From Burkholderiales bacterium (GTDB taxonomy: Bacteria > Pseudomonadota > Gammaproteobacteria > Burkholderiales > Burkholderiaceae_C), in the NCBI GenBank assembly GCA_028871575.1, contig JAGWMW010000009.1, positions 1-34,114 of the forward strand: a stretch of 34,114 nucleotides of DNA, in the 5' to 3' direction. The notes beneath the pieces are model-generated. The model saw nothing but the letters and a program-made list of their open reading frames with translations, did no database searches and was not told where the DNA came from. A program made the position numbers and the translations under genes. Each line of letters starts with the position of its first letter. The first letter of the stretch is position 1. This document shows positions 2,552-17,420 of the stretch, piece by piece.

Positions 2552-5500
2552 ATGAACGCATCCGCCGACCCCGGCAGCCCAGGCGCCACGGCCGGTGCCG
2601 CGGGCCGGCGCCACTACCTCACCGTCCTCTTCGCCGACCTGTCCGACTCCACCGAGATCGGCACCGACCTGGAAGCCGAGCTCTACGCGCAGCTGCTGGC
2701 CGAGGTGCGCGCGGCGATGCGGCGTCTCGTGGTCCACCACGGCGGGCGCATCGCGCGGCTGCAGGGCGACGGCGTGCTGGCCGTCTTCGGCCTGCCCGCA
2801 CCGGGCGAGGACGACGGCCGGCGCGCCTGCGAGGCCGCGCTCGACCTGCACGCGGCCGTGGCCGGCATGACGCTGCAGCTGCCCGGGCGCGAGCCGGTGC
2901 CGCTGGCCCTGCACTCGGGCATCCACGCCGGGCTGACCTACGTGCTGCCGGGCAGCGCCGAGGTGGGCGCGATGGACCTGGTGGGCGACGTGCCCAACGT
3001 TGCGGCCCGCCTGTCCAGCCTGGCCGGCCGCGGCGAGATCGTGGTCAGCACCCAGAGCCTGGGCGACGGCATCCACTTCTTCGAGGCCACGGCGCCCGAG
3101 AGCGCGCGCCTGCGCGGGCGCCCGCGTCCGCTGCCGATCTGCCGCGTGCTGCGCCGCCAGGCCATGCCGCGCCGGTTCGAGGCGCGCGCCGCACGGGGGT
3201 TGGCCCCCTTCATCGGCCGCGAGGGCGAGATGGCGCAGCTCGAGGCCGCGCTGGAAGCGGCCGCCGCCGGCGCCCCGCAATGCGCGGCCGTCATCGGCGG
3301 ACCCGGTCTGGGCAAGACGCGGCTGGTCGAGGAGCTGATGCAGGCCGCGCGCACCCGCGGCGTCGCCGTGCTGCACGGTTATTGCGAAAGCTACCTCGGC
3401 GCGGAGCCGCTGCAGCCCTTCCTGCAGATCCTGCGCGGCCTGATCGGCCTGGCCCCGGGCACCGAGGCGGCCGCCGCGGCGCAGAAGGCGCAGGCGGTGC
3501 TCACGACGCAGATCGGCCTGGCCGCGGACAGCGCCGCGGCACTGCGGCGTGCGCTTTCGCTGCCGCTGCCCGACGAGGCCGCCCCGCGCGCCGAAGCCGG
3601 CACCACCGTGCTGGCGGTGGCGCGGCTGGTCGAGCGTCTGGCTGCGCGGGCCACCGTGCTGCTGGTGCTGGACGACTGGCAATGGGCCGACGAGCACAGC
3701 CAGCGCGTGCTCGACGGCCTGCTGGCCCTGCCCGCGGCGGTCTGTGCCGTGCTGGTGACGCGGCCCGAGGCCGAGGCCACCGAGCTGCTGCCGACCGCGG
3801 CCCGGCGGCTGGTGCTGGCGCCGCTGGCGCTGGCGCAGACCCGGCAGGCGCTGGCGCACCTGCTGCCGGGGGCCGACCCGTTCGCGGTGGCCGAGATCCA
3901 CCGCTATGCCGGCGGCGTGCCGCTGTTCATCGAGGAGCTCTGCCACTCGATGGCCGCGCCGCGTGCGCTGGATGCGCCGGCCGACACCGCCGAGCGCGCG
4001 GCCTGGCTGGCGGCGCTGGTGGTCTCGCGCGTGGAGCGGCTCGAGGCCGAGCCGCAGCGCGTGGTGCAGGTCGCGGCCGTGATCGGCACGCTGTTCCCGG
4101 TCTGGCTGCTCGAGCGCCTGACCGGCTGCGGCGAGCACTCGCCCGTGCTGCAGTCGCTGGCGGCGAACGACCTCGTGTTCCCGTCGGCGCAGGCCGGGGT
4201 GCTGCGCTTCAAGCATGGGGTCACGCGCGACGTGGTCTACGAGGCCGTGGGCCTGCACGAGCGCCAGGCGATCCACCGCCAGGTGGCGCAGGCGCTGCGC
4301 GAGCGCGGCGACGACGGCAGCCGCGAAGACCTGCTCGAGGCCCTGGCCTACCAGCATGCCGCTGGCGGCCAGCCGGCCGAGGCCGCGCGCTACGCCGAGC
4401 TGGCGGGCGACAAGGCGGCCGCCGCCTTCGCGCTCGATCGCGCGCGCGTGCAGTACGCCGCGGCCCTGAAGGCGCTGGACGCGCTGGCCCCGCTGTCGCG
4501 CACCGACCGGCTGCGCTGGTGCCGCCTGGCCGAGAAGCTGGGGCTGGCCTGCGTGTTCGACCCGCTGGCGCTGGCCGACGGCGTCAGCCTGTTCGAGCGC
4601 GGCCTGGCCCTGGCCGAGAGCGCCGACGAGGCGCCGGCCGTGGCCCGCGCCCGCTACTGGCTGGGCTACCTGCACTATGCCCGCGGCCAGACGCGGCCCG
4701 CGCTCGCGCATTGCCAGGCCGCGCTGGCGATGGCCGAGCAGCTCGGCGACGAGCGCCTGGCCGCCCAGGTGCGCGCCACCCTGGGCCAGGCGCTGCAGTG
4801 CGCGGCCGACTACGGGCGCGCGCTGCCGCTGATCGACGCCGCGCTCGACCTCAAGCGCGCCCGCGGCCGGCCCGGCAGCAGCGTGGCCGTGGGCTCGGCC
4901 TACTCGCTGGCCTGCAAGGGCGCGATGCTGGGCGATCGCGGCGAGTTCGATGCCGCCGATGACTGCTTCGCCCAGGCGCTGGAGCTGCTGGGCGACAGCG
5001 CGCACCTGGTGGGCAGCTCGGTCCGCAACTGGGCCAGCTGCACCTGGCAGTGGCAGGGCCGCTGGGCCGATGCCGAGCGCATCGCCGCCGATTCGATGCG
5101 CGTGGCCGAGCAGGGCAAGAGCCGCCAGCTGCTGGCCATGAGCCGCGCGCTATGGGGCCATGCGCAATGGCGGCTCGCGCGCGAGCGCAAAGGCGGCCCG
5201 CAGGACCGCCCCGGCGCCGACGGCCTGCAGGCGCTGCTCGACGCCACGCGCTGGATCGAGGAGCGCCGCGGCGCCCTCGTCACCTCGCTCAACTATGGCT
5301 ACCTCGTCAGCGGCGCCGTGGCCGAAGGCCGGCTGGGCGATGCGCGCCGGCATGCCGCGCGCCTGTGGCAGCGGGCCCGCCAGCGCGACCGCCTGGGCGA
5401 GCCGATGGGTTGCCGCGCACTGGCCGGCCAAGCGGCGCGGCAGGGCGACTTCGCGCGGGCCGAGCGGCTGCTGCGGCAGGCCGGGCGCGCCGCCGACGCG

Positions 5501-5680
5501 CGCGGCTCGCCGCACGAACAGGCGGCCAATGCGCTGTGCCGCGCCGAGGTCGAAGCGCTGCGCGGGGCGCCGCACCGCGCGGCCGCGCTGAGCGCGCTCG
5601 ACGCCGCCGGCGCCGCCTTCGAGGCGCTGGGCATGCGCTGGCATCTGCAGCAGGCGCTGGACCTGCGGGCGCGGCTGTAG
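2552..5680 (+). CDS. class III nucleotide cyclase / AAA-type ATPase / TPR regulator
   Basis: A 1042-aa multidomain protein without a signal peptide or membrane segments, so probably cytoplasmic. Residues ~20-200 are a class III cyclase homology domain. The first metal Asp is Asp29 in FADLSDST, the second is Asp73 in LQGDGVLAVFG, and the transition-state Asn/Arg pair lies in GDVPNVAARL. The usual adenine-selecting Lys before the GDG motif is Arg here (ARLQGDG), so nucleotide specificity is open. Residues ~215-500 are a STAND-like P-loop ATPase: Walker A GGPGLGKTRLVEE (Lys255), and Walker B LLVLDDWQWAD (Asp374/375). The remaining ~500 residues are Ala/Leu-rich helical repeats of TPR type. This architecture is a known family of putative signal-integrating adenylate/guanylate cyclases with unknown inputs. 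The ATG at 2552 directly precedes the conserved domain. It stands alone, with no close downstream gene for 180 bp. Confidence 0.85.
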   Translation: MNASADPGSPGATAGAAGRRHYLTVLFADLSDSTEIGTDLEAELYAQLLAEVRAAMRRLVVHHGGRIARLQGDGVLAVFGLPAPGEDDGRRACEAALDLHAAVAGMTLQLPGREPVPLALHSGIHAGLTYVLPGSAEVGAMDLVGDVPNVAARLSSLAGRGEIVVSTQSLGDGIHFFEATAPESARLRGRPRPLPICRVLRRQAMPRRFEARAARGLAPFIGREGEMAQLEAALEAAAAGAPQCAAVIGGPGLGKTRLVEELMQAARTRGVAVLHGYCESYLGAEPLQPFLQILRGLIGLAPGTEAAAAAQKAQAVLTTQIGLAADSAAALRRALSLPLPDEAAPRAEAGTTVLAVARLVERLAARATVLLVLDDWQWADEHSQRVLDGLLALPAAVCAVLVTRPEAEATELLPTAARRLVLAPLALAQTRQALAHLLPGADPFAVAEIHRYAGGVPLFIEELCHSMAAPRALDAPADTAERAAWLAALVVSRVERLEAEPQRVVQVAAVIGTLFPVWLLERLTGCGEHSPVLQSLAANDLVFPSAQAGVLRFKHGVTRDVVYEAVGLHERQAIHRQVAQALRERGDDGSREDLLEALAYQHAAGGQPAEAARYAELAGDKAAAAFALDRARVQYAAALKALDALAPLSRTDRLRWCRLAEKLGLACVFDPLALADGVSLFERGLALAESADEAPAVARARYWLGYLHYARGQTRPALAHCQAALAMAEQLGDERLAAQVRATLGQALQCAADYGRALPLIDAALDLKRARGRPGSSVAVGSAYSLACKGAMLGDRGEFDAADDCFAQALELLGDSAHLVGSSVRNWASCTWQWQGRWADAERIAADSMRVAEQGKSRQLLAMSRALWGHAQWRLARERKGGPQDRPGADGLQALLDATRWIEERRGALVTSLNYGYLVSGAVAEGRLGDARRHAARLWQRARQRDRLGEPMGCRALAGQAARQGDFARAERLLRQAGRAADARGSPHEQAANALCRAEVEALRGAPHRAAALSALDAAGAAFEALGMRWHLQQALDLRARL

Positions 5681-5860
5681 CGCCGCCGCGGCGCCGCGGC
5701 GCCACGGCGCGCCCGAGCCGCCTCCCCTACCTTGCAGGGCCTTCGGAACTAGGGCATTGACGCCCCTGGGCCGGGGGCATTCACTGCGCCCACCCGCCGG
5801 CCGTCCGTCGGGCCCGGGCTTGCCCGGTCCGTCACCCCGTCCTTCGAAGGAGCCCCGCGC

Positions 5861-6142
5861 ATGGTCACCAGGAAGAGCGCCTCCAACTCGGCCCGCACCG
5901 GCGTGAAGACCGCCGGCCGGCCGACCGACAGCACGGCCCCGCCGCGCACCCGCGGCGCTGCCGCCGACAACACGCCCAGCGCCGCCGACCTCGACCTGCG
6001 CGACCGGCTGAAGGCCGGACCGAGGCGACCGGCCGGCCCGCCGCTGGTGGGCGACATCATGACCCGCGCCGCGATGGATGCGCTGCGCGACGAGGTCGTG
6101 CCCGAGCCCACCGAACCCAAGAACCGCCGAGCGAGGAAGTGA
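5861..6142 (+). CDS. hypothetical small basic protein, first gene of a three-gene cluster
   Basis: 93 aa, rich in Arg, Ala, Pro and Thr with no predicted membrane segment. The N-terminal ~60 residues look disordered (TRKSASNSARTG, PPRTRGAAADN), followed by a short, more ordered-looking part (PPLVGDIMTRAAMDALRDE) and a basic tail ending RRARK. I do not recognise a family. Support for a real gene is a good ribosome binding site (GAAGGAG) before the ATG and tight coupling to the next gene: its TGA is 2 bp from the next ATG and overlaps an alternative GTG. The 180 bp upstream hold GC-rich palindromic sequence just after the cyclase stop and no clear promoter. Confidence 0.6.
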   Translation: MVTRKSASNSARTGVKTAGRPTDSTAPPRTRGAAADNTPSAADLDLRDRLKAGPRRPAGPPLVGDIMTRAAMDALRDEVVPEPTEPKNRRARK

Positions 6143-6144
6143 CC

Positions 6145-7353
6145 ATGGCCCTCACACTGCTCCAGAACCTCGGGCTCGACGACGCCGCCACCAGCCAGAC
6201 CACCTCGTCCGTCTGCGAACCCACGGCGGCGGCCAACGAGCGCCAGCTCTTCATGACCGGCAACTGGTTCGCCAGCAGCTCGAACGACGGCGGCGCGAGC
6301 TGGACCTACGTCAACCCCTTCAACCGCTTCCCGGCCACCGCGGGCGGCTTCTGCTGCGACCAGGTGGTGCTCTACAACGCCCGCCACCGCATCTGGATCT
6401 GGCTGCTGCAGTACTCGCAGGGCAGCAACGGCGAGAACCTGTTCCGCCTGGCGATCTCGCGCGAGGCCAGCTTCGGCAGCTGGTACTACTGGGACTTCGT
6501 GCCGCGCGGCGTCAGCGCCAGCTGGGCTGGCCAGTGGTTCGACTACCCCGACATGGCCTGCACCGACGCCCAGCTCTTCGTCAGCTTCAACATGTTCAAG
6601 GGCAACGCCTGGCAGCGGGCCGCGGTGTTCCGCTTCCCCCTGGCCACGCTGGCCGCCGGCACCGCGCTCGGCTACCGCTACTGGGCCACCACTGCCAACG
6701 GCTCGATCCGGCTGTGCCGCGGCCCGGGCGCCACCATGTACCTGGGCAGCCACAACAACGCCAGCCAGATCCGCGTGCTGCAGTGGCCCGACAGCAGCAC
6801 CGGCATCAGCTGGAAGGACGTCAACGTGCGCGCCTGGTCGGGCGGGGCCTACTCGGCGCCCGGCCCCGGCGGCGTGAACTGGCTGGGGCGGCTGGACCCG
6901 CGCATCACCGGGGCCTGGGTCGGCGCCGGCATGGTGGGCTTCATGTGGTCGGCCAACCGCGACGGCAGCCATCCGCTGCCCTACATCCGCGTCGTGCGCC
7001 TGCGCCTGCCGGGCCTGACGCTGCTCGACGAGCCCGACATCTGGAGCCGCCTCTCGGCCTGGGCCTACCCCGCGGCCGCGGCCAACGCGGCGGGCGCCAT
7101 GGGCTTCAGCGCGTTCTACGGCGGCGGGGCGCGCCACCCCGGTCATGTGGTGGGCGTGAAGTCGGCCACCGGCTGGGACACCACGCTGACCCGCACCAGC
7201 AGCCACAGCCCGCCCGACCAGGCCTGGGGCGACTACCTCTCGTGCACGCCGCACCACGCCAGCAGCGCGCAATGGGTGGCCTCGGGCTACACGCTGCAGG
7301 GCGGCACCGCCCGCCGCAACATCGAACCCCGCTACGTGCGCTTCCGCGCCTGA
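6145..7353 (+). CDS. Asp-box (BNR) beta-propeller-like protein, unknown function
   Basis: 402 aa, rich in Trp, Tyr, Gly and Ser, with repeated beta-strand-like blocks of ~50-60 residues. A clear Asp-box, S-x-D-x-G-x-x-W, is seen early (SSNDGGASW), which is the hallmark of sialidase-like and other BNR beta-propellers. Further blocks of the type GSHNNASQIRVLQWPDSSTG look like degenerate blades. There is no signal peptide, so if it acts outside the cell its export is not obvious. The sialidase catalytic Arg triad cannot be assigned, so enzymatic function is not claimed. The ATG at 6145 is preferred over the GTG at 6139 because GAGG at 6133-6136 is well spaced for it. It sits between two small unknown genes and is probably cotranscribed with them. 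Confidence 0.75.
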   Translation: MALTLLQNLGLDDAATSQTTSSVCEPTAAANERQLFMTGNWFASSSNDGGASWTYVNPFNRFPATAGGFCCDQVVLYNARHRIWIWLLQYSQGSNGENLFRLAISREASFGSWYYWDFVPRGVSASWAGQWFDYPDMACTDAQLFVSFNMFKGNAWQRAAVFRFPLATLAAGTALGYRYWATTANGSIRLCRGPGATMYLGSHNNASQIRVLQWPDSSTGISWKDVNVRAWSGGAYSAPGPGGVNWLGRLDPRITGAWVGAGMVGFMWSANRDGSHPLPYIRVVRLRLPGLTLLDEPDIWSRLSAWAYPAAAANAAGAMGFSAFYGGGARHPGHVVGVKSATGWDTTLTRTSSHSPPDQAWGDYLSCTPHHASSAQWVASGYTLQGGTARRNIEPRYVRFRA

Positions 7354-7366
7354 GGAGCAAGCTGCC

Positions 7367-7585
7367 ATGTACGACCTGATCTCCCGCCTGCCGGCGCGCC
7401 AGCTGCTGCTGCGCCAGGCTCCCACGCTCCTTGGCGCGATGGCCATCGCCGAGACCTTCTACAAGTGGCACAGCTTCCTGCTGGAGACCGGCGGCTTCCT
7501 GCTGACCTGGTTCCTGCTGGATGCCCTGGTGAGCCTGCTCGAGCGCGCCTTGGGCCGCGCCGCCCGCGGCGGGCCGGGGCGCTAG
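7367..7585 (+). CDS. small membrane protein of unknown function
   Basis: 72 aa. Two hydrophobic stretches, about residues 18-30 and 39-60 (the second being GGFLLTWFLLDALVSLL), are followed by a basic Arg-rich tail, consistent with one or two membrane helices and a cytoplasmic C-terminus. It begins 13 bp after the propeller gene with GAGGAG as ribosome binding site, so it is almost certainly in the same transcript. No family is recognised. It could anchor or assist its propeller neighbour, but only the gene order suggests this. Confidence 0.6.
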   Translation: MYDLISRLPARQLLLRQAPTLLGAMAIAETFYKWHSFLLETGGFLLTWFLLDALVSLLERALGRAARGGPGR

Positions 7586-7625: not shown

Positions 7626-7640
7626 CCCTGGATGGGCCCT

Positions 7641-7712: not shown

Positions 7713-10700
7713 GTGCGCAGGGAACTCATCACCAAGTCCAGGAACCTGGTCGGCACGAGCGACCTCACCCTGCTGGCGCCGATCCGGCCCGGCCTGGTGC
7801 CGTCGTTCAACTCGATCAGCCACAAGTCGCGCATCAAGTCGCTGCTGCAGGCGCTGAACGCGGGGCGCAGTTCGGCGCACGAGTACGCGCTGCTGCGGCC
7901 GTTTTCCGACGCGGTCGAGCGCGTGGGCAAGATCCACTCGGTGCGGGTCGCGGTGCTCGAGCCCGAGAACCAGGTGCTGCTGGCCGTGACCTTCGACGGC
8001 AGCTGGGAGGCCTACCTGCGCGTGCTGTGGCAGAAGGTGGGCACGCTGCTGGACATCATCTTCTACGACACCGAGGGCTACGTCTGCGCCTACGACCGCC
8101 CTTACGACGAGTGGGCCGGCTGGGTGCGCCGGGTGCAGGTCGAGACCCATTTCTACTACGGCACGCCCGCACTCACCGTCGGCGACGTGCCGCTGCTGCA
8201 GGCCGAGGAGCGCCAGCGCCGCGCCTGCCCCTACCAGCCTGGTAACGAGCTGGCCGCGGCGCGGCGCCACGGCGTTGGCGCCGAGGCCGCGGCCTGGCAG
8301 CAGGTGACGGCTTCGCCCGCCACCGGGGCCGAGACCTTCAAGCAGGGGCTGGAAGCGATGGCGGCGCTGTACCGCCTGACCGAGGTCTACCAGCCCGGCA
8401 CCGACGACGGCCAGGTGCTGCTGCGCGCGGTGCGCGACCTGCTGCTCGAGTTCGTGCGGCTGCTGGGGTCGGGGGCGATCCCGCCGCCGGTGATGGCCGC
8501 GGCCCGCGTGCGCTTCGACAAGCAGCTGGCCTGGCTGCAGCAGCAGTCCGACGCGCCGCGCGAGCGCCAGCGCGTGGCCCCGCCGCTGCCGGACGGGCCG
8601 CCGGTCTTCGACGCCGCCGACGTGCAGGCCGGCATCCTGAGCGCGCACGACGGCGTGACCGACGGCGCGCTGCTGCTGCTGGCGATCACGGACCGCGTGC
8701 GCGCCGCGCCCTTCTTCCGGCGCCTGGCGCAGGCCGTGCGCCGGCACAGCGACCCGCCGGCCACCGCCGCCGACACCCTGGTCAACGTGGGCTTCAGCCA
8801 CGAGGGCCTGCGCGCGGCGGGCCTGGCCGAGGACGAGCTGGCGCTGTTCCCGCAGGAGTTCCGCGAAGGCATGGCCGCGCGCGCCAGCCTGCTGGGCGAC
8901 TGCCGGCTCAACCACCCGCGGCGCTGGCGCCTGCCGCCGCGGCGCGGCGCCGTGCCCGGGCCCGACGGCCAGGTGCCGAGGGTCGAGTGGGAGGCCGTGC
9001 ACCTGGTGCTGCAGCTGCGCTGGGTGGCGCCGCCCAGCGACCGCTGGTGCGAGATCGAGGACCCGTGCCACCCGCTGCACGGCCGCTTTGCGGGCTGGGC
9101 CGAGGACGCCGAAAGCCATGGCCTGGCCTTGCTCGCGGTGCAGACGCTGCACCGCTATTTCCGCGACGCCCGCGGCGCGCCGGCCGGCACGCCGCCCCAG
9201 GTCGAGGAGCATTTCGGCTACGCCGACGGCAACAGCGACCCGGTGCTGGACCCGGCCGAGGCCGGCCAGGTCTACCCCAACCGCATCCAGCTCGGCGAGC
9301 TGCTGGTGGGGGCCGCCAACGAAGCCGACTGGCCGCTCGACCCCGAGCGCCGAGCCGACCCCGCGCTGGAGCGCCAGCGCCTGGCCTGGCTGGGCAACGG
9401 CAGCTTCATGGTGCTGCGCAAGCTGGCGCAGAACCGGGCTCGGCTGGACCGCCTCGTGGCCGAGGCCGCCGCCGCCAGCGGCCTGGCGCCCGGGCTGCTG
9501 CGCGCCAAGCTGATGGGCCGCTGGGACGACGGCACGCCGCTGGTGGGCACGGGCGGCCCCGGCGCGGCACACAACGACTTCGACTACCGGGCCGACCCCG
9601 ACGGTGCGCAATGTCCCTTCCACGCCCATATCCGCCGCGTGAACCCGCGCCAGCCGCCGGGCCTGCACGAGCCGGCCGGCCGGCGCACCCCGCGCATCGC
9701 GCGCCGCGGCATGTCCTACGGGCCGCGCTACACCGCCGGTACCGCCGATGCCGCCGATGCCGCCGGCGCAGCCGACGCGCAGGCCGAGCGCGGCCTCGTC
9801 TTCATGGCCTACAACGCCAGCCTGGCCGAGCAGTTCGAGGTGCTGCAGGGCTGGCTCTCGGGCGGCAACAGCAGCGGCGCCGGCTCCGAGCCCAGCGACC
9901 CGTTCCTGGGCGTGCCGGCCAACGGGCGCCGGCGCCACTACCGCTTCGAGCACCCCGGCGCCGACGGTCAGCCGCGGGTCGTGAGCCTGGCGCTGGACGG
10001 CAGCGACACGCTGCTTGGCGACCCCGAGCCGATCGTGCGGCTGGACTGGGGCGGCTACCTCTTCGCCCCGTCGATGAGCGCGCTGCAGCGGCTGTGCGAC
10101 CGCGCCGCCCGCGCCGTGCCGCCGCCCGAGCCGGCCTGGTCGGTGGCCGAGGGCGCCGAGCTCATCGCGGCGCTGCGCGCCACTGAGGCCGCCGAGGGCG
10201 CCGAGGCCGCTGCGCAGGCCTGGAAGGCCGCGCTCGAAGACCCGATCGAGCAGCAGAAATTCCGCGCCGCCTCGATCTGGGCCGCCTTGCGTGCGCAGCA
10301 CGCCGGCGTGCTGCGCACGCCCTACGGCCTGCTGGTGGCCGATCCCGCGCTGGCGCTGCAGGTGCTGCGCGATGCCGCGCGATTCTCGGTGCGCGGCTAC
10401 CACGAGCGGCTGGCGCAATCGATCGGCGACATCTACCTCGGGCAGGACCCCGATGCCCGCTACGACGCCGTGGCCGGCGCCGTCAACGCCGCCATCGGCG
10501 CCCTGCCGCGCGAGCCCGCGTTCGAGCTCACGCGCCGCTGCACGGCCGAGGTGCTGGCGGCCTTCATCGCCGAGGCGCGCCGCCACCCCAACCCGGCGCA
10601 GCCGGCGCAGTGGGAGCTGATGCTCGAGCTGCGCGAGCTGATCGAGCCGGTGCTGGGCCGGCTGTGCCAGCACTGGTTCGGCATGCCGGTGCAGGACACG

Positions 10701-11534
10701 CCCGATGTCCGCCTGTCGGGCCGGCGCTGGGACGCCGGCGGCCAGACCGCCTGCTACCCGGGGCATTTCACGGCCCCATCGCGCTACGTGTTCCAGCCGC
10801 TGCCCGGCGCGCAGGCGCAGGCCCTGGGCCGCGACGACGGGCGGGTGCTGACGGCCGCCTTCACGCGCTTCGTGCGCGACCGCTGCGCGCACGGCGGCTG
10901 GCCGCTGCCGGCGCCCGACGGCCGCCCGGCCCCGGTGGCCGAGGCCATCTGGCGCCGCTTCGGCGGCCCGCAGGCCGACGCCGCCTTCATCGCCCGCACC
11001 CTGGTCGGCACCATGATGGGCATGCTGCCGACCCTGGACGGCAACCTGCAGCGCGTGCTCAACGAGTGGCTCTACGAAGGCACCCTGTGGTCGCTGCGCG
11101 CGCAGTGGCTGGCGCTGGAGGCCGGCGAGCGCAGCTTCGACGCCGCCACGCGGCTGCTCGGGCCGCCGCTGCGCCAGGCGATGCAGTTGCGGCCGGTGCC
11201 CGAGCTGGTCTGGCGCACCGCCACCGCCGCCGCGCCGCTGGGGCCGCTGGTGGTGCAGCCCGGCGAGCGCGTCGTCGTGGCCCTCGTCTCGGCCTCGCAG
11301 CAGGCGCTGGCCGACGGCGACCCCGACCTGGCGCTCAACTTCGGTGGCGACCGCGGCCTGCCGCGCCATCCGCCGCATGCCTGCCCGGGGCAGGAGGCGG
11401 CGATGGGCGCGCTGCTGGGCTTCCTGGCCGGGCTGCTGGACACACCGGGCGCGATGCGCCCGAGCCCGCTGCCGCTGGTGCTGACCTTCGACGGGCCGTT
11501 CGTGGCACCGCCGGCGCCGCCGGCCGCGACGTAG
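7713..11534 (+). CDS. DyP-type peroxidase - cytochrome P450 fusion protein
   Basis: A 1273-aa, three-part protein with no signal peptide. Residues ~1-240 resemble one ferredoxin-like module (VTFDGSWEAYLRVLWQKV). Residues ~300-770 are a DyP-type haem peroxidase: the N-terminal half begins VQAGILSAHDG, the diagnostic GYADG lies at 502-506 (catalytic Asp505), the likely proximal haem ligand is His639 in AHIRRVNPR, and the distal Arg lies in RRGMSYG (664-665). Residues ~850-1260 are a cytochrome P450, with haem-thiolate Cys1224 in HACPGQEAAM. The I-helix region is MMGMLPTLDGN (1101-1111), and the K-helix ExxR is replaced by QAMQ (1155-1158). GTG 7713 is preferred because AGAGGGGG precedes it. DyPs use H2O2 to oxidise organic substrates; the substrate of the fusion cannot be told. 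A radical SAM gene converges on its 3' end. Confidence 0.88.
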   Translation: MRRELITKSRNLVGTSDLTLLAPIRPGLVPSFNSISHKSRIKSLLQALNAGRSSAHEYALLRPFSDAVERVGKIHSVRVAVLEPENQVLLAVTFDGSWEAYLRVLWQKVGTLLDIIFYDTEGYVCAYDRPYDEWAGWVRRVQVETHFYYGTPALTVGDVPLLQAEERQRRACPYQPGNELAAARRHGVGAEAAAWQQVTASPATGAETFKQGLEAMAALYRLTEVYQPGTDDGQVLLRAVRDLLLEFVRLLGSGAIPPPVMAAARVRFDKQLAWLQQQSDAPRERQRVAPPLPDGPPVFDAADVQAGILSAHDGVTDGALLLLAITDRVRAAPFFRRLAQAVRRHSDPPATAADTLVNVGFSHEGLRAAGLAEDELALFPQEFREGMAARASLLGDCRLNHPRRWRLPPRRGAVPGPDGQVPRVEWEAVHLVLQLRWVAPPSDRWCEIEDPCHPLHGRFAGWAEDAESHGLALLAVQTLHRYFRDARGAPAGTPPQVEEHFGYADGNSDPVLDPAEAGQVYPNRIQLGELLVGAANEADWPLDPERRADPALERQRLAWLGNGSFMVLRKLAQNRARLDRLVAEAAAASGLAPGLLRAKLMGRWDDGTPLVGTGGPGAAHNDFDYRADPDGAQCPFHAHIRRVNPRQPPGLHEPAGRRTPRIARRGMSYGPRYTAGTADAADAAGAADAQAERGLVFMAYNASLAEQFEVLQGWLSGGNSSGAGSEPSDPFLGVPANGRRRHYRFEHPGADGQPRVVSLALDGSDTLLGDPEPIVRLDWGGYLFAPSMSALQRLCDRAARAVPPPEPAWSVAEGAELIAALRATEAAEGAEAAAQAWKAALEDPIEQQKFRAASIWAALRAQHAGVLRTPYGLLVADPALALQVLRDAARFSVRGYHERLAQSIGDIYLGQDPDARYDAVAGAVNAAIGALPREPAFELTRRCTAEVLAAFIAEARRHPNPAQPAQWELMLELRELIEPVLGRLCQHWFGMPVQDTPDVRLSGRRWDAGGQTACYPGHFTAPSRYVFQPLPGAQAQALGRDDGRVLTAAFTRFVRDRCAHGGWPLPAPDGRPAPVAEAIWRRFGGPQADAAFIARTLVGTMMGMLPTLDGNLQRVLNEWLYEGTLWSLRAQWLALEAGERSFDAATRLLGPPLRQAMQLRPVPELVWRTATAAAPLGPLVVQPGERVVVALVSASQQALADGDPDLALNFGGDRGLPRHPPHACPGQEAAMGALLGFLAGLLDTPGAMRPSPLPLVLTFDGPFVAPPAPPAAT

Positions 11535-11542
11535 CGCCCGCT

Positions 11543-13492
11543 TCAGGCCCGGGCCGCCAGCGCGCGCTCGATGCGGCGCCGCGCCACGCCGGCCTTGGGC
11601 ACCGTGAAGTCGAACCAGCTTCGCACGTCTTCCTCCAGCCCCAGGCCGTGCATGTAGTTGTAGAGCGCCTTCTTCAGCCCCGGCGCCAGCGCGTCGTGGT
11701 CGCAGCCGGTGGGGTCGACGAAGCCGATGTCGTTCTTCGCGAAGCGGCCGGCCGGCAGCGGCTGCAGCGTCACGCCCCAGTCCTGCGGCCGCTGGCCCAC
11801 CGGCGAGTGCACGGTGCAGGTGTAGCGGTGCCAGAAGCCCGACTGGATGCAGCCGGCGGCGAAGAGCTGGCGCACGGTCTCCAGCGCGTCCACCGTGTCC
11901 TGCAGGGTCTGGGTCGGGAAGCCGTACATCAGGTAGGCGTGCACCAGGATGCCGGCCTCGCTGAAGGCGTGCGTCACGCGCGCCACCTGCTCCACCGACA
12001 CGCCCTTCTTCATCAGCGCCAGCAGCCGGTCGCTGGCCACCTCGAGCCCGCCCGAGATGGCGATGCAGCCGCTGGCAGCGAGCTCGCGGCAGAGCTGCGG
12101 CGTGTAGGTCTTCTCGAAGCGGATGTTGCCCCACCAGCTGATGGCACGGCCGCGCCGCTGCAGCTCGGCCGCCAACGCCTTCAGCGACTTCGGCGGCGCC
12201 GCCTCGTCGACGAAGTGGAAGCCGCTCTGCCCGGTCTCGGCCACGATCGCCTCGATGCGGTCGACCAGCGTGCTCGCGGTGGCCGCGTCGTAGCGGCCGA
12301 TGTAGTCCAGGCTCACGTCGCAGAAGCTGCACTGCTTCCAGTAGCAGCCATGGGCCACGGTGAGCTTGTTCCAGCGCCCGTCGCTCCACAGCCGGTGCAT
12401 CGGGTTGAGCAGGTCCAGCAGCGAGAGGTAGCGCGACAGCGGCAGGCCGTCCCAGGTGGGCGTGCCCACGGCTTCGAAGGGCACGTCGGGCTCGACGAAG
12501 TTCGTGTACCGCACGGCCTGCGTGGCGGCGTCCCGGGTGTAGGTGCGCACCAGCCGGCTCGCCGAGCGCCGGCCCTGCAGGTGCTCGATCAGCGCCAGCA
12601 GCGGGCGCTCGCCGGCGTCCAGCGTGACGTAGTCGAAGTGGTCGAACACGCGCGGCTCGGCCAGCTCGCGCAGCTCGGTGTTGACCCAGCCGCCGCCCAG
12701 CACCGTGACCAGCCCGGGCTGCAGGGCCTTGATCGTCTGCGCGATGCGGAAGGCGGCGTAGGCCGCCCCCGGGAAAGGCACCGACAGCAGCACCAGCGTG
12801 GGCCGGTGGCGCCGCACGGCCTCGCGCGTGAGCGTGGCCAGCGTGCGGTCGATCAGGTTCGGCGGCGCCGCCAGCGCCTGGGCCAGCGGGTCGAAGTGCG
12901 GCTGGCTCTGCGCCAGGCGCTCGCCGTAGCGCACGAACTCGAAGCGCGAATCGACCGCCTCGCGCAGCACGTCGGCGAGGTCGTTCAGGTACAGCGTGGC
13001 CAGGTGGCGCGCCCGGTCCTGCACGCCCAGCGCGCCGAAGGCCCAGGCCAGAGCATCGCCCTGGCCGCCGGCACTGCCGCCGTCGCCGCCCGGCTCGGCG
13101 TACACCTCCAGGGCCTGGAACCGAGAGCCCTCGGGCAGGAAGGCGCGCCCGGCGATGCGGTGCGCCAGCGTGGCGTCGCGGCCCTGCAGGAAGGCCAGGG
13201 CCGGCCCGACGGTGGCGCGGTAGCGCTCGAAGCGGGCGTCGAAGGCGGCCACGCGCGGCGTGCGCGCGGCCGCGGGCAGCGCGGCGATGGCCTCGCGCAC
13301 CGCGTCCAGCCCGGTCGGCGACAGCAGGGCCAGGATCAGCGCCAGCGCCAGGTCTTCCTGCTGTGCGGCGATGCCGCGCGAGCGCAGGAACCCGGTCAGG
13401 TAGGCAGTGGACGGGTAGGGCGTGTTCAGCTGCGTCATCGGCGGGATCAGCGACAGGACGCGCAGCGGCACGCCGGGCGGGGCGGCAGGCAT
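11543..13492 (-). CDS. B12-binding-type radical SAM protein
   Basis: 649 aa. The N-terminal ~330 residues look like the cobalamin-binding-like domain of this class (start VLSLIPPMTQLNTPYPSTAYL, and later LVLLSVPFPGAAYAAFRIAQ and VTVLGGGWVNTEL). The radical SAM core follows, with its iron-sulfur cysteines in GCYWKQCSFC (Cys383, 388, 391). This is a CX4CX2C spacing rather than the usual CX3CX2C. Later core elements are visible: HFVDEAAP, WWGNIRFEK, ISGGLEVASDRLL and HAYLMYGFPTQT. Such enzymes cleave S-adenosylmethionine to a 5'-deoxyadenosyl radical; many methylate or rearrange unactivated carbons, but no substrate is evident. It is convergent with the DyP-P450 gene (8-bp gap) and divergent from the patatin gene (98 bp). 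The canonical DXHXXG cobalamin motif is not obvious, so B12 binding itself is uncertain. Confidence 0.85.
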   Translation of the reverse strand: MPAAPPGVPLRVLSLIPPMTQLNTPYPSTAYLTGFLRSRGIAAQQEDLALALILALLSPTGLDAVREAIAALPAAARTPRVAAFDARFERYRATVGPALAFLQGRDATLAHRIAGRAFLPEGSRFQALEVYAEPGGDGGSAGGQGDALAWAFGALGVQDRARHLATLYLNDLADVLREAVDSRFEFVRYGERLAQSQPHFDPLAQALAAPPNLIDRTLATLTREAVRRHRPTLVLLSVPFPGAAYAAFRIAQTIKALQPGLVTVLGGGWVNTELRELAEPRVFDHFDYVTLDAGERPLLALIEHLQGRRSASRLVRTYTRDAATQAVRYTNFVEPDVPFEAVGTPTWDGLPLSRYLSLLDLLNPMHRLWSDGRWNKLTVAHGCYWKQCSFCDVSLDYIGRYDAATASTLVDRIEAIVAETGQSGFHFVDEAAPPKSLKALAAELQRRGRAISWWGNIRFEKTYTPQLCRELAASGCIAISGGLEVASDRLLALMKKGVSVEQVARVTHAFSEAGILVHAYLMYGFPTQTLQDTVDALETVRQLFAAGCIQSGFWHRYTCTVHSPVGQRPQDWGVTLQPLPAGRFAKNDIGFVDPTGCDHDALAPGLKKALYNYMHGLGLEEDVRSWFDFTVPKAGVARRRIERALAARA

Positions 13493-13590
13493 GGCCCGCG
13501 CATTGTCACCGCCCGCCAGGCGCCGCCGGGGCGTGCCTAGGGACGTTGCCGAGGCGGGCCCGACAAGTCGTCGGTTACATTCGCCCCGCC

Positions 13591-15462
13591 ATGCGACAGC
13601 CGTACCAGGACGAACTGCTCGATCAGCATCTGCGCGCGGTCCTGGGCGACCTGCCGGCCGAAGTGTTGGCCCCGCTGCGGCAGGCGCTGCGCTGGGTCGA
13701 GCTCGCCGGCGGCGAGACGCTGATGACGCAGGGCGAGCCCGGCGACTGCCTGTACCTGTCCATCAGCGGCCGCCTGCGCGCCTACGTGCGCGACGACGAC
13801 GGCCGCGAGCGCGCGGTGCGCGAGATGGCGCGCGGCCAGGTCATCGGCGAGATGGCGCTGTTCACCGACGAGCCGCGGTCGGCCACGGTGGTGGCGATCC
13901 GCGACTCGGTGCTGGTGCAGCTCAGCCGCAGCGCCTTCGAGCGCCTGCTGGGGGCCAGCGCGCAGGCCTCGATCGCGCTCACGCGGCGCGTGATCCAGCG
14001 CCTGCGCAAGCCGCAGACCGCGGCCGACTTCGCACGGCCGGTGACGCTGGCGCTGCTGCCGGTGACGGCCGGCGTCGACGTGCCGGCCTTCGCGCAGGCG
14101 CTGGCCGCGCAGCTGCGCCGCCAGCCGGGCGCGTCGCGGGTGTGCATCGTCGACGCCGCCGGCGTCGAGGCCGCGCTGCACGCCAGCGCCGACAGCGAGC
14201 TCGAAGCCGAACGCCGGATCGCGCTCTACCTGGACCGCATCGAGGCCGAGCACGAGTTCGTGCTGCTGCTGGGCGACGACGGCCCCACGCCCTGGACGCG
14301 GCGCTGCTGCCGCCGCAGCGACGAGATGCTGCTGCTGGCCGACGCCGATGCCGCGCCGGTGCTGCACCCGATCGAGACCGAGCTGCTGATGCACCGGCCC
14401 GGGCGCAGCGAGGCGGCCGAGATCCTGGTGCTGCTGCACCCGGCCGAGCGGCGCTGCCCGCAGGGCACGCGCGCCTGGCTCGACCGCCGGCCGCTGACCG
14501 ACCACGTGCACATCCGCCCCGCCCTCGCGCGCGACATGGCGCGGCTGGCGCGGCTGCAAAGCCGCAACGCCATCGGCCTGGTGCTGGCCGGCGGCGGCGC
14601 GCGCGGGCTTTCGCACCTGGGGCTGCTGCAGGCGCTGCAGGCGCAGGGCATCGAGATCGACTGCGTGGGCGGCACCAGCATCGGCGCCGTGATGGCGGCG
14701 CTGATCGCCTCCGACCAGCCGCCCGAGACCGTGGTGCCGATCGCGCGCCGCGCCTTCATCGGCAACCCCACCGGCGACTTCAACCCGGTGCCGCTGCTCT
14801 CGCTGATCCGCGGCCGGCGCCTGAAGCGCGTGATGGACGCCGCCGCGTTCGAACTCTTCGGCACCATGCCCGACCTCGAAGACCTGTGGAAGACCTGCTA
14901 CTGCGTGGCCAGCAACTACTCGCAGGCGCACGAGGCGGTGCTGCGCCGCGGCAGCGTGTCGTGGGCGCTGACGGCCAGCACCGCGATCCCGGGTGCGCTG
15001 CCGCCGGTGCTGTACGGCGGCGAGCTGCTCTGCGACGGCGGCACCTTCAACAACTTCCCCGTCGACGTGATGCGGGCCCAGCGCGGCGTGGGCCGCGTCA
15101 TCGGCGCCGACCTGAGCTACCGCAAGCTGCGCCCCATCGAGCTCGACGAGGTGCCTTCGCCCTGGGCGCTGCTGCTGGACCGCCTGCGCCCGCGCGGCCG
15201 GCGCCGCTACCGGCTGCCCTCGCTCGTCGGCTACCTCATGAACGTGAGCGTGCTGTACAGCGCCTCGCGCCAGCGCCAGTCGCGCGCCCTGACCGACCTG
15301 TACTTCAACCCCCACCTGCCCAAGGTGGGCATGCTGCAGTGGCGCCGCTTCGACCACATCGTGCAGCTCGGCCGGGCCCATGCGCAGGAGGTGCTGGCTG
15401 CGCTGACGCCGCAGGCCCTGCGCCCGTACCGCGACGCCGTGGCGCTGCCGCCCGAGGGCTGA
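13591..15462 (+). CDS. cyclic-nucleotide-binding patatin-like phospholipase (NTE type)
   Basis: 623 aa. Residues ~15-130 are a cNMP-binding domain of CRP type, with phosphate-binding cassette GEMALFTDEPRSAT (Glu87, Arg96). A linker region follows (~150-320). Residues ~325-520 are a patatin lipase with oxyanion loop GGGARG, nucleophile Ser363 in GGTSIGA and dyad partner Asp482 in DGGTFNNFP. Both catalytic residues are present. This is the bacterial neuropathy-target-esterase layout, expected to hydrolyse acyl esters of (lyso)phospholipids, possibly gated by cyclic nucleotide. The start is ATG 13591; upstream in-frame codons overlap the divergent radical SAM gene. The next gene starts 17 bp after its stop and is likely cotranscribed. 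Ligand binding by the cNMP domain is inferred from the intact Glu/Arg only. Confidence 0.92.
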   Translation: MRQPYQDELLDQHLRAVLGDLPAEVLAPLRQALRWVELAGGETLMTQGEPGDCLYLSISGRLRAYVRDDDGRERAVREMARGQVIGEMALFTDEPRSATVVAIRDSVLVQLSRSAFERLLGASAQASIALTRRVIQRLRKPQTAADFARPVTLALLPVTAGVDVPAFAQALAAQLRRQPGASRVCIVDAAGVEAALHASADSELEAERRIALYLDRIEAEHEFVLLLGDDGPTPWTRRCCRRSDEMLLLADADAAPVLHPIETELLMHRPGRSEAAEILVLLHPAERRCPQGTRAWLDRRPLTDHVHIRPALARDMARLARLQSRNAIGLVLAGGGARGLSHLGLLQALQAQGIEIDCVGGTSIGAVMAALIASDQPPETVVPIARRAFIGNPTGDFNPVPLLSLIRGRRLKRVMDAAAFELFGTMPDLEDLWKTCYCVASNYSQAHEAVLRRGSVSWALTASTAIPGALPPVLYGGELLCDGGTFNNFPVDVMRAQRGVGRVIGADLSYRKLRPIELDEVPSPWALLLDRLRPRGRRRYRLPSLVGYLMNVSVLYSASRQRQSRALTDLYFNPHLPKVGMLQWRRFDHIVQLGRAHAQEVLAALTPQALRPYRDAVALPPEG

Positions 15463-15479
15463 CCGAGGCCGCACCGACG

Positions 15480-17420
15480 ATGACCGCCCCGCCCGAGCTG
15501 CACCCGCGGCTGCAGCCGCACGCCGACAAGGTGGCCAGCGCCGCCGAGGCGGTGCGCCTGGTGCGGCCCGGCGACCACGTGTTCGTGGGCAGTGCCTGCG
15601 CCACGCCGCGCGCGCTGGTGGCGGCGCTGGAGGCCTGGGAGTTCGGCCCCGCCGACGTCGAGCTGCTGCACTTCCTGACCGACCATGCCGTGCCGCACGA
15701 CGCCCAGGGCCGGGCCACGACGCGGCTGCGCCACCGCAGCTTCTTCGTCGGCGCCGACATCCGCGCCGCGGTGGCCCAGGGGCTGGCGGAGTACGTGCCG
15801 CTGTCGATCGCCCGCGTGCCGGGGCTGATCGCGCTGGGCCGCATCGCCGTCGACGTCGCCTTCGTCCAGGTCTCGCTGCCCGACGCCCACGGCTGGGTCA
15901 GCCTGGGCGTCTCGGTGGACCTGGCCCCGGCGGCGCTGGCGCGGGCCCGGGTCGTGATCGCCGAGGTCAACCCCGCGATGCCGCGCACGATGGGCGACAG
16001 CCTGCTGCACGTCAGCCGCATCGACCGCCTGGTGCCGGTGAACGCGCCCGTGATCGAGTACGCGCACCCGCCCACGGCCGAGGCCGCGATGGCGCAGATC
16101 GCGCGCTACGTGGGCGGCATCATCGAGGACGGCTCGACGCTGCAGATCGGCCTGGGCCGGGTGGCCAACGAGGCGCTCAAGCACCTGGCCGACCGGCGCG
16201 ACCTGGGCATCCATTCCGATGTCGTCACCGACGCCCTGCTGCCGCTGCTGGCGCGCGGCATCGTCACCGGCCGGCGCAAGACGCAGCAGCCGCACAAGAT
16301 CGTGGCCAGCTTCGCGATGGGCAGCCGCGCCCTGTACGAGCTGATCGACGGCAACCCGCTGTTCTCGTTCCAGCCCATCGAGCAGGTCTGCGACCCCGCC
16401 GTGCTCGCGGCGCAGCACCGGCTGGTCTCGGTGACGCAGGCCTTCGCCATCGACCTGAGCGGCCAGGTCTGCGTCGACCAGGAGGCCGGCGGCTTCTACG
16501 GCGGCCTGGCCGCGCAGGCCGAGTTCCACGCCGCGGCGGCACGCTCGCCGGGCGGCAAGGCCATCATCTGCCTGGCGTCCACCGAAGCGCTCGAAGCGGC
16601 AGTGGAGGGCGAGGCGGGCGCTCCCGCCCTGCCGCCCTCGCGCATCCGGGCCCGGCTCGGCCCCGGCGAGGGCGTGGCCGTGCCGCGCAGCGAGGTGCAC
16701 TACGTCATCACCGAATACGGCATCGCCTACCTCTTCGGCAAGTCGGTGCGCGAGCGCGCGCTGGCGCTGATCGGCATCGCTCATCCCGGGCACCGGGCCG
16801 GGCTGCTGGCCCAGGCGCAGGCCCTGGGCTGGGTGCCGGCGGCGCAGACGCTGAAGAACCTGCAGGCCTACCCGGTGCACGAGGAGCAGGCCGCCACGTT
16901 GAAGGACGGCCGCGCGCTCCTGCTGCGCCCGGCCACCGCCAGCGACGGCGACGGCATCCGGGCGCTGTTCCACGGCCTGTCCGAGCGCGACGTCTACACC
17001 CGCTTCTTCCGCAAGCTGCGCGGCCTGTCCGACCGCGACGCGCAACGCCTGTGCAACGTCGACTTCGACAACGAGGTGGCCTTCGTCGCCACCGCCGGCC
17101 CGCGCGAGAGCGCGCAGGTCGTGGGCCACGCCTTCTACAGCGTCGACCCTTCCACCAACCTGGCCGAGACGGCCTTCATGGTGCACCCCGACTGGCGCGG
17201 CTCGGGCCTGGGCGCGCTGCTGCAGCGCAGCCTGGCGGCCCATGCGCGCAGCCGCGGCGTGCGTGGCTTCGTGGCCGAGCTGCTGGCCAGCAACGAGCAC
17301 ATGCTGCGCCTGGCCCGCGGCCGCGCCGGCGACGACCCCGCAGGCGACGCCGGCTCGGTGCAGATCGAGGACCAGGGCGGCACGCTGCGCGTCACGCGTC
17401 TGTTCGGCGACGGGGGCTAG
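15480..17420 (+). CDS. bifunctional acetyl-CoA hydrolase/transferase - GNAT acetyltransferase
   Basis: 646 aa. Residues ~10-460 are an acetyl-CoA hydrolase / class I CoA-transferase pair of domains (PGDHVFVGSACATPRAL, LQIGLGRVANEAL, VHYVITEYGIAYLFGKS). Residues ~485-630 are a GNAT acetyltransferase domain with acetyl-CoA loop RGSGLGALL. The fusion is a known proteobacterial family. The first part should hydrolyse or transfer CoA from short acyl-CoA; the second may acetylate lysines of proteins, as in Pat-like GNATs, but no target is known. It lies 17 bp downstream of the patatin gene and probably shares its transcript. Lipid acyl release and acyl-CoA handling would then be expressed together. 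The catalytic Glu of the CoA-transferase part was not assigned. Confidence 0.9.
   Translation: MTAPPELHPRLQPHADKVASAAEAVRLVRPGDHVFVGSACATPRALVAALEAWEFGPADVELLHFLTDHAVPHDAQGRATTRLRHRSFFVGADIRAAVAQGLAEYVPLSIARVPGLIALGRIAVDVAFVQVSLPDAHGWVSLGVSVDLAPAALARARVVIAEVNPAMPRTMGDSLLHVSRIDRLVPVNAPVIEYAHPPTAEAAMAQIARYVGGIIEDGSTLQIGLGRVANEALKHLADRRDLGIHSDVVTDALLPLLARGIVTGRRKTQQPHKIVASFAMGSRALYELIDGNPLFSFQPIEQVCDPAVLAAQHRLVSVTQAFAIDLSGQVCVDQEAGGFYGGLAAQAEFHAAAARSPGGKAIICLASTEALEAAVEGEAGAPALPPSRIRARLGPGEGVAVPRSEVHYVITEYGIAYLFGKSVRERALALIGIAHPGHRAGLLAQAQALGWVPAAQTLKNLQAYPVHEEQAATLKDGRALLLRPATASDGDGIRALFHGLSERDVYTRFFRKLRGLSDRDAQRLCNVDFDNEVAFVATAGPRESAQVVGHAFYSVDPSTNLAETAFMVHPDWRGSGLGALLQRSLAAHARSRGVRGFVAELLASNEHMLRLARGRAGDDPAGDAGSVQIEDQGGTLRVTRLFGDGG

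Follow-up and report, generated by a model that had tools for sequence, protein, structure and literature searches.

We report here on a 34,114-nucleotide contig (the window) of a Burkholderiales bacterium (assembly GCA_028871575.1, contig JAGWMW010000009.1), in which one gene joins a DyP-type peroxidase to a domain of the cytochrome P450 superfamily. The fusion chain consists of three domains, namely an N-terminal domain (N-domain), the DyP domain, and the C-terminal P450-superfamily domain. The fusion is real, unusual, and recurrent, and it varies the known theme of peroxidase-P450 fusions without being an entirely new kind of protein. With a probability of roughly 0.45, it may be an oxylipin-synthase-like enzyme of new build, with two haems, a hand-over of peroxide between its halves, and a control linked to a nucleotide cyclase. 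The gene and its domains are located as follows (positions of the window).

7713..11534, plus strand: complete fusion gene, starting with GTG and encoding 1273 aa before the stop
7713..8591, plus strand: N-domain, residues ~1-290, with FDGSWE at residue 94 (tblastn, annotation)
8604..10136, plus strand: DyP-type peroxidase domain, residues ~298-808 (TIGR01413; nearest PDB entries 8re3/8re2)
10233..11501, plus strand: P450-superfamily domain, residues ~841-1263 (profile-profile comparison with hhalign)

The frame (7713-11534, plus strand) is uninterrupted, with the sole stop of the translation at its 3' end, and the haem-ligand residues of both the DyP and the P450-type half are conserved across the aligned members. 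The longest open reading frame of the same frame begins at an ATG at 7632, upstream of GTG 7713. The GTG is preferred because the ATGs of homologues fall at or near its column: four (L002, L003, L009, and L010) have an ATG aligned to that very column, and six (L004, L012 to L015, and L017) have one two or three columns past it. GTG 7713 is thus the likely start codon, and the alignment backs an earlier first-pass annotation of this DNA in that choice. The G+C contents by codon position (0.78/0.53/0.96) are similar to those of the adjoining cyclase gene (0.82/0.54/0.95; see below).

Within a set of 148 related genomes, which includes the window's own (genome set 1), 25 give some match and 13, again counting the window's own, have the fusion. 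It lies within a single contig in 10 of these 13 and is cut by contig ends in G021, G033, and G072; one carrier, G042, is assembled into 3 contigs. The fusion is also carried by the public records L002, L003, and L004, of which L002 (a contig of G053) encodes a protein 85% identical to the window's and L003 breaks off within the P450 part. The single stop and the 13 of 148 genomes confirm that DyP and P450-superfamily domains share one uninterrupted frame, as the first pass had it, and show that the gene is no assembly artefact. In a sample of 398 genomes across the phylum, window-type fusions were found in two, the window's own and G609, the latter outside the window's class. The window-type fusion is therefore rare but recurrent, beyond the window's class too. 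Three copies (L009:142-1170, L011:511-1518, and L128:4226-5152) have an additional C-terminal GDSL-type hydrolase domain (PF13472), with E-values of 3.2e-6, 0.0013, and 6.5e-7, respectively, all below the Pfam cut-off. A copy on a Sphingopyxis plasmid (L022:7962-10391) lacks the N-domain and DyP front and is placed directly after a Tn3 transposase gene. Literature searches aimed at DyP-P450 fusions (titles and abstract openings, with few subscription papers) found no published one, and in the available part of a heme-peroxidase review (PMC4420034), a P450 fusion is named for linoleate diol synthases only. Uncharacterized DyP-P450 fusion proteins are already present, without comment, in public annotation; within the literature searched, the earlier statement that no characterized bacterial example is known continues to hold.

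In the DyP domain, three stretches carry the residues typical of the family.

9216..9230, plus strand: GYADG motif, residues 502-506, with Asp505 (Asp in 13/13 covering members; 1/14 rows lacks the region)
9627..9650, plus strand: HIRRVNPR with the proximal His639 (His in 14/14)
9702..9722, plus strand: RRGMSYG from residue 664, the distal arginine region with Arg664 and Arg665 (both Arg in 14/14)

By the GxxDG aspartate, the proximal histidine, and the distal arginine, the domain is a member of the DyP family. All of these residues, as well as the HACPG cysteine Cys1224 (see below), are where the first-pass annotation had placed them. TIGR01413 matches at an E-value of 1.2e-22 (80.7 bits, below the curated cut-off of 100.5), and PF20628, whose cut-off is 20 bits, scores 19.4 bits against the protein and 21.7 bits in the genome search. 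A search of PDB sequences gave 8RE3/8RE2 as the nearest solved structures (E 2.7e-32); 8RE3, matched over all 445 residues, is DR_A0145 (DrDyP) of Deinococcus radiodurans, whose gene is preceded by an N-domain gene and followed by a catalase-like one. As stated in the available part of PMC10820274, DrDyP has no peroxidase activity at physiological pH because of its six-coordinate low-spin haem, DyPs as a family use H2O2, and the natural role of DyPs is an open question. Some DyPs work only feebly as peroxidases at physiological pH.

The P450 kinship of the C-terminal part is detectable only by profile-profile comparison, beyond Pfam; the Pfam p450 model matches it in 0 of 15 members, and an NCBIfam scan likewise gave no P450 match. 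For this comparison, a profile of the window-type P450 domains (A2) was aligned by hhalign with a profile (A7) of 10 P450s that are beside or fused to peroxidase-type proteins. The match has a probability of 99.5 (E 3.2e-22, score 170, 346 aligned columns), and the best of 20 column-shuffled copies scores 21.3. Compared with 20 ordinary P450s, nearly all of them from related genomes and one (L072) itself a DyP neighbour, A2 matches with a probability of 98.6 (E 5.5e-16, score 126.6, 372 aligned columns); as controls, 20 column shuffles score at most 21.4, the DyP profile 22.9, and the N-domain profile 16.0. A comparison of the family profile with PDB sequences gave 20 matches to E 10, 19 of which are P450s, the best at only 0.015. 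Against A2, every set of four DyP-linked P450s (15/15 sets) scores 125 to 143, the four P450s linked to RoxA-like or cyclooxygenase (COX)-like proteins score 93, and eight random triples of ordinary P450s score 63 to 91; within the A7 clade, the DyP-linked P450s are the closer ones. The AlphaFold2 model of the P450 part, built from four sequences only, has a pLDDT of 43.4 and a pTM of 0.28, values too low for the model to bear on the fold. Three stretches of the domain bear on its chemistry.

11013..11033, plus strand: helix-I stretch MMGMLPT, with Pro1106 at the acid position of AGx[D/E]T
11175..11216, plus strand: helix-K/meander stretch QAMQLRPVPELVWR, in which ExxR is gone and Trp-Arg remains
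11340..11390, plus strand: Cys loop FGG ... HACPG with the haem-ligand Cys1224 (insert of several residues; Cys in 14/14)

The acid position of helix I is occupied by Pro in 13 and by Ala in 1 of the 14 covering members, so the acid-alcohol pair is missing. At the ExxR position, the Glu is found in 0/14 and the Arg in 4/14 members. The meander retains Arg1168 in 14/14 and Trp1167 in 13/14 (Tyr in L022). The F, G, and Cys of the FxxGxxxCxG loop are present in 14/14, with several inserted residues that break the strict motif, and the H-A-C-P surrounding Cys1224 is invariant in 14/14; L003 ends before this loop. Because ExxR is lost and the Cys loop has an insert, we use the term "P450-superfamily domain": judged by its profiles, the C-terminal part belongs to the P450 superfamily by whole-domain homology and is not a standard P450. 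The P450 half of the first-pass annotation is thus upheld in its superfamily kinship and its cysteine and has to be given up as a standard P450 (ExxR Glu in 0/14, Pfam match in 0/15). Since the helix-I acid and the ExxR glutamate are both lost, ordinary O2-activating chemistry seems unlikely.

The earlier description of a two-domain protein needs amendment, as residues 1-290 form a third, N-terminal domain. Its best Pfam E-value among the N-domains of 13 members is 0.065, i.e., at chance level. The domain is homologous to a separate "hypothetical protein" (~200 aa) encoded near DyP on plasmids; such stand-alone genes match at ~1e-6, and proteins of this type match 37 plasmid records, many from Alphaproteobacteria. 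At the seven split loci inspected, the N-domain gene is directly upstream of the DyP gene (in Streptomyces, one gene lies between). A catalase-like gene belongs to the same run in 5/7 (Methylorubrum, Agrobacterium, Deinococcus, Acinetobacter, and Rhodococcus), and genes for oleate hydratase, 3-hydroxyacyl-CoA dehydrogenase, or thioesterase (acyl-CoA) adjoin 3/7 (Agrobacterium, Deinococcus, and Acinetobacter). Because the N-domain is a separate gene near DyP elsewhere, the fusion has absorbed a neighbour gene of DyP. Plasmids of hosts as different as Agrobacterium and Deinococcus (where DrDyP is the DyP) carry the N-domain, DyP, and catalase-like genes as a group (L024, L027, L028, L029, and L032), and three of these five loci have genes of fatty-acid metabolism nearby. 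The AlphaFold2 model of the N-domain has a pLDDT of 50.1; its best Foldseek E-value is 0.029, with many ferredoxin-like/ABM-type proteins among the matches, a weak hint that the domain may have a ferredoxin-like alpha+beta fold. The N-domain was also considered as a second haem site, which was dropped, since its invariant and near-invariant columns hold no His or Cys. The N-domain profile matches 2 of 369 genomes of the window's class, one being the window's own, and a scan of viral contigs with the N-domain gave 19 pattern matches and no relatives.

The same partners are also joined in another way. In type A fusions, one chain comprises P450, a middle part, an N-domain-like part, and DyP, which is the reverse order. 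Members are SARO_RS19865 of Novosphingobium aromaticivorans DSM 12444 (1443 aa) and proteins of Sulfitobacter (1620 aa) and Pararhizobium (1423 aa), and six further type A genomes make up 6/398 of the phylum sample. The middle part contains a hydrophobic stretch, as judged by eye. No paper on SARO_RS19865 or its kin was found. P450 and DyP are also neighbouring genes at nine loci (7/398 of the phylum sample, where L072 stands for G103, plus Skermanella and G110, the latter as L073). A FastTree phylogeny built from 53 DyP domains groups the window type in a single long-branched cluster (node support low, 0.31); type A clusters at a support of 1.0, with the unfused neighbour L073 inside, and is distant from the window type. 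Because the two orders are far apart in this tree, the two fusions probably arose separately. A different kind of P450, with AGYAST, adjoins DyP in G028 and G036, and a Methylorubrum plasmid has the gene order ferredoxin, reductase, P450, catalase-like, N-domain, DyP.

Members of the A7 clade of P450s have other partners as well. In Rhizobium etli IE4771 and Sinorhizobium medicae, they adjoin an animal-peroxidase-family protein (PF03098, E 9.3e-44 and 1.5e-44, respectively). The best PDB matches of the R. etli COX-like protein are prostaglandin synthases (4.7e-57), and the COX-like proteins of both species contain YRWH, a motif that the available part of PMC4496055 ascribes to fungal linoleate diol synthase. 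RoxA-like dihaem proteins are the partners in Bradyrhizobium barranii (with an oleate hydratase nearby), Methylobacterium radiotolerans, and two more genomes, one of which (L124) has the very protein of B. barranii; the same part of PMC4496055 describes PA2077/PA2078 of P. aeruginosa as fatty-acid oxygenating and RoxA related. Fatty-acid dioxygenases are among the members of both partner families. The P450 gene pairs of L084, L085, L124, and L125 (RoxA-like) and of L086 and L087 (COX-like, YRWH) are possible bacterial oxylipin pairs. Among 26 of these P450s, the acid position of helix I is Pro in 18/18 that are DyP linked (9 neighbours and 9 type A), Glu in 6/6 that are linked to RoxA-like or COX-like proteins, and Glu in 2/2 for which no partner was found; ExxR is kept in 26/26, type A (9/9) included. 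The analogy with PpoA and CYP74 drawn in the first-pass annotation gains strength from this clade, which pairs with YRWH-bearing COX-like and with RoxA-like proteins, and from the loss of the acid in 14/14 window-type domains and in 18/18 DyP-linked P450s of the clade.

Several known systems resemble the fusion in part. The fusion looks like a bacterial counterpart, with other building blocks, of the two-haem enzymes that serve fungi in making lipid signals. In these fungal DOX-CYP enzymes (PpoA and linoleate diol synthases), a single chain likewise starts with a haem peroxidase-type half and continues with a self-sufficient P450 half, and they share an HxC in the Cys loop (PMC13049297, available part); their first half, however, is of the COX superfamily, whereas that of the window is DyP, an unrelated fold, and the window protein is bacterial and has an extra N-domain. 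Type A fusions resemble it in combining DyP, an N-domain-like part, and a P450 of a related clade in one chain, next to a TPR gene, but their P450 is at the N terminus, ExxR is kept, and a hydrophobic stretch lies between the parts. DrDyP, the nearest solved DyP, is similarly flanked by N-domain and catalase-like genes but is a stand-alone DyP without a P450. In the rhizobial pairs, too, a haem dioxygenase-type protein accompanies a P450 from the related clade, but the partner is COX-like, the genes are separate, and the P450 keeps its helix-I acid. CYP74 and CYP152, to which the P450 half is likened by description only, are users of peroxide that lack the usual O2-activating pair and have no DyP partner.

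Upstream of the fusion in the window lies a gene that may bear on its control.

2552..5680, plus strand: class III nucleotide cyclase-AAA_16-TPR gene (Pfam Guanylate_cyc 4.1e-13, AAA_16 8.8e-28)

The best match to this gene is at most ~2.2 kb from the fusion in 8/9 genomes tested, often tail to tail; in G012, the best match is on the same contig, 16 kb away. A Pfam cyclase domain is present in the neighbour at 8/8 window-type loci scanned (the window, L022, L033, and L035 to L039), and no cyclase-type gene was found at E 1e-4 in L003 (8 kb upstream only) or L004 (8 kb on each side). Type A loci have a TPR gene upstream in 9/9, with a cyclase domain in 5/9 and TPR only in the other 4, and the same five cyclase-bearing loci also hold a Crp/Fnr gene; Crp/Fnr genes are likewise near the window-type fusions of L022, L033, and L035. 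Because the cyclase gene adjoins the fusion in 8/9 genomes, the enzyme may be part of a locus under the control of a signal, with the cyclase as a possible regulator.

Between cyclase and fusion, positions 6139-7353 (plus strand) encode a 404-aa protein without a match in the Pfam scan, whose SNDGGASW-type text we take to resemble sialidase-type propeller repeats. The gene is 91% identical in L002 (on the same contig as L008/G053) and was not found in the other loci compared. It is regarded as real because of its G+C by codon position (0.60/0.58/0.98), and an overlapping minus-strand frame (5749-7446; 0.88/0.62/0.68) was rejected as a gene. A B12-binding radical SAM protein (11543-13492, minus strand) is encoded tail to tail with the fusion and is also present in L002, and an acetyl-CoA hydrolase-GNAT protein is encoded at 13422-17420 (plus strand). 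Positions 13675-14076 show a weak likeness to a Crp-type regulator (31%, 8e-5; no Pfam match) and therefore might receive a signal from the cyclase.

In the mechanism that we propose, the DyP half, aided by the N-domain, would make or present an organic peroxide, most likely a fatty-acyl one. The altered haem-thiolate half would cleave and rearrange its O-O bond independently of O2 and of any reductase. The timing of enzyme production would be set in part by the neighbouring cyclase gene. In this scheme, we infer the two bound haems, the transfer of peroxide, the lipid substrate, the product, and the control. Peroxide hand-over is the best reading because the P450 clade swaps among DyP, COX-like, and RoxA-like partners. 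Because the acid is lost, the chain is shared, and sister P450s stand beside dioxygenase-type families, the P450 half most likely consumes the peroxide of its partner. According to the available part of PMC13049297, the same logic applies to DOX-CYP and COX/prostacyclin-synthase pairs. A lipid chemistry is inferred from homology, and the GDSL-type domains and the lipid genes at some of the split loci point the same way; we also count in favour of a hand-over the lack of peroxidase activity of DrDyP, the nearest solved DyP, at physiological pH. A bolder version, which is doubtful but deserves attention, makes the DyP half itself a fatty-acid (di)oxygenase whose hydroperoxide passes along the chain to the reductase-free haem-thiolate half, the enzyme being the output arm of a bacterial lipid-signal locus controlled by cyclic nucleotides. 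If true, the cyclooxygenase/P450 principle would have been invented once more, from unrelated origins, and this DyP subfamily would have a natural role.

A number of observations weigh against the proposed hand-over. DyPs are known as H2O2 peroxidases, and we know of no DyP that is a fatty-acid dioxygenase. The activity and the haem content of the fusion are predicted from sequence, and even haem binding by the P450 part is putative, because the ExxR Glu is absent in all 14 members and the Pfam match in all 15. No lipid-oxidation gene is among the nine window genes scanned. A single-sequence ranking is mixed, the top match of the A2 model being the type A P450 of L129, followed by the COX-linked P450 of L087. 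Since there are near-duplicate rows and the change possibly occurred once, in an ancestor, the Pro/Glu split in helix I is a pattern and not a statistic. Finally, the DyP-linked P450 of the Methylorubrum plasmid retains AGHET together with ferredoxin and reductase, an ordinary monooxygenase set.

Among the other explanations, an unlikely but serious one is a peroxygenase, in which both halves use H2O2: hydroxylation of a substrate, perhaps an acyl one, would take place in the P450 half by the peroxide shunt, and the DyP would clear excess H2O2 or oxidize the product. CYP152 enzymes are driven by H2O2 through this shunt and have likewise lost the acid-alcohol pair. The ferredoxin reductase of Methylorubrum, the sole query of its sort, has no match in the compared loci, and use of H2O2 is a trait of DyPs as a family (PMC10820274, available part). 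However, a peroxygenase leaves the swap with dioxygenase-type partners unexplained, and DrDyP, the nearest solved DyP, shows no activity with H2O2 at physiological pH (same part of PMC10820274). Rather less credible is a decayed, non-catalytic P450 half, serving for substrate holding, partner docking, or sensing, with the DyP working alone. The lost ExxR, the enlarged Cys loop, and the missing Pfam match would fit such a decay; yet the Cys, the H-A-C-P, and the meander Arg are invariant in 14/14 members that, L002 (84%) excepted, are only 29 to 43% identical to the window's, and this weakens the case, since a dead domain would not need such invariance.

We consider it improbable that the fusion holds an ordinary P450 monooxygenase, with ferredoxin and reductase encoded elsewhere, and an unrelated peroxidase. 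The gene order of the Methylorubrum plasmid, with its ferredoxin and reductase, speaks for this, but the P450 there has AGHET, whereas the acid is absent in 14/14 window-type and 18/18 DyP-linked A7-clade domains. Still more improbable is a cyclic-nucleotide signalling or defence unit with the fusion as its effector, making, e.g., a toxic or signalling oxidized lipid on cue. The cyclase-AAA-TPR gene is beside most fusions with enough flank, a Crp/Fnr gene is found in several, and the cyclase matches PycC models (best, 1.1e-15); those matches, however, may reflect the shared cyclase domain only, the fusion has no PADLOC match, and the N-domain scan of viral contigs gave no relative. As for an assembly artefact joining two genes, the assembly is indeed a draft of 293 contigs, but the same fusion in 13/148 genomes and in the public records L002 to L004 refutes this in practice.

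Through fusions in two different orders and through many gene pairs, one DyP subfamily is linked to a P450 clade that has COX-like and RoxA-like partners elsewhere. This gives a direct, testable guess at a natural role of DyPs, namely, peroxide hand-over in lipid oxidation. The fusion described here is possibly a self-contained two-haem catalyst, and its P450-type domain seemingly has no need of ExxR or of the O2-activating acid.

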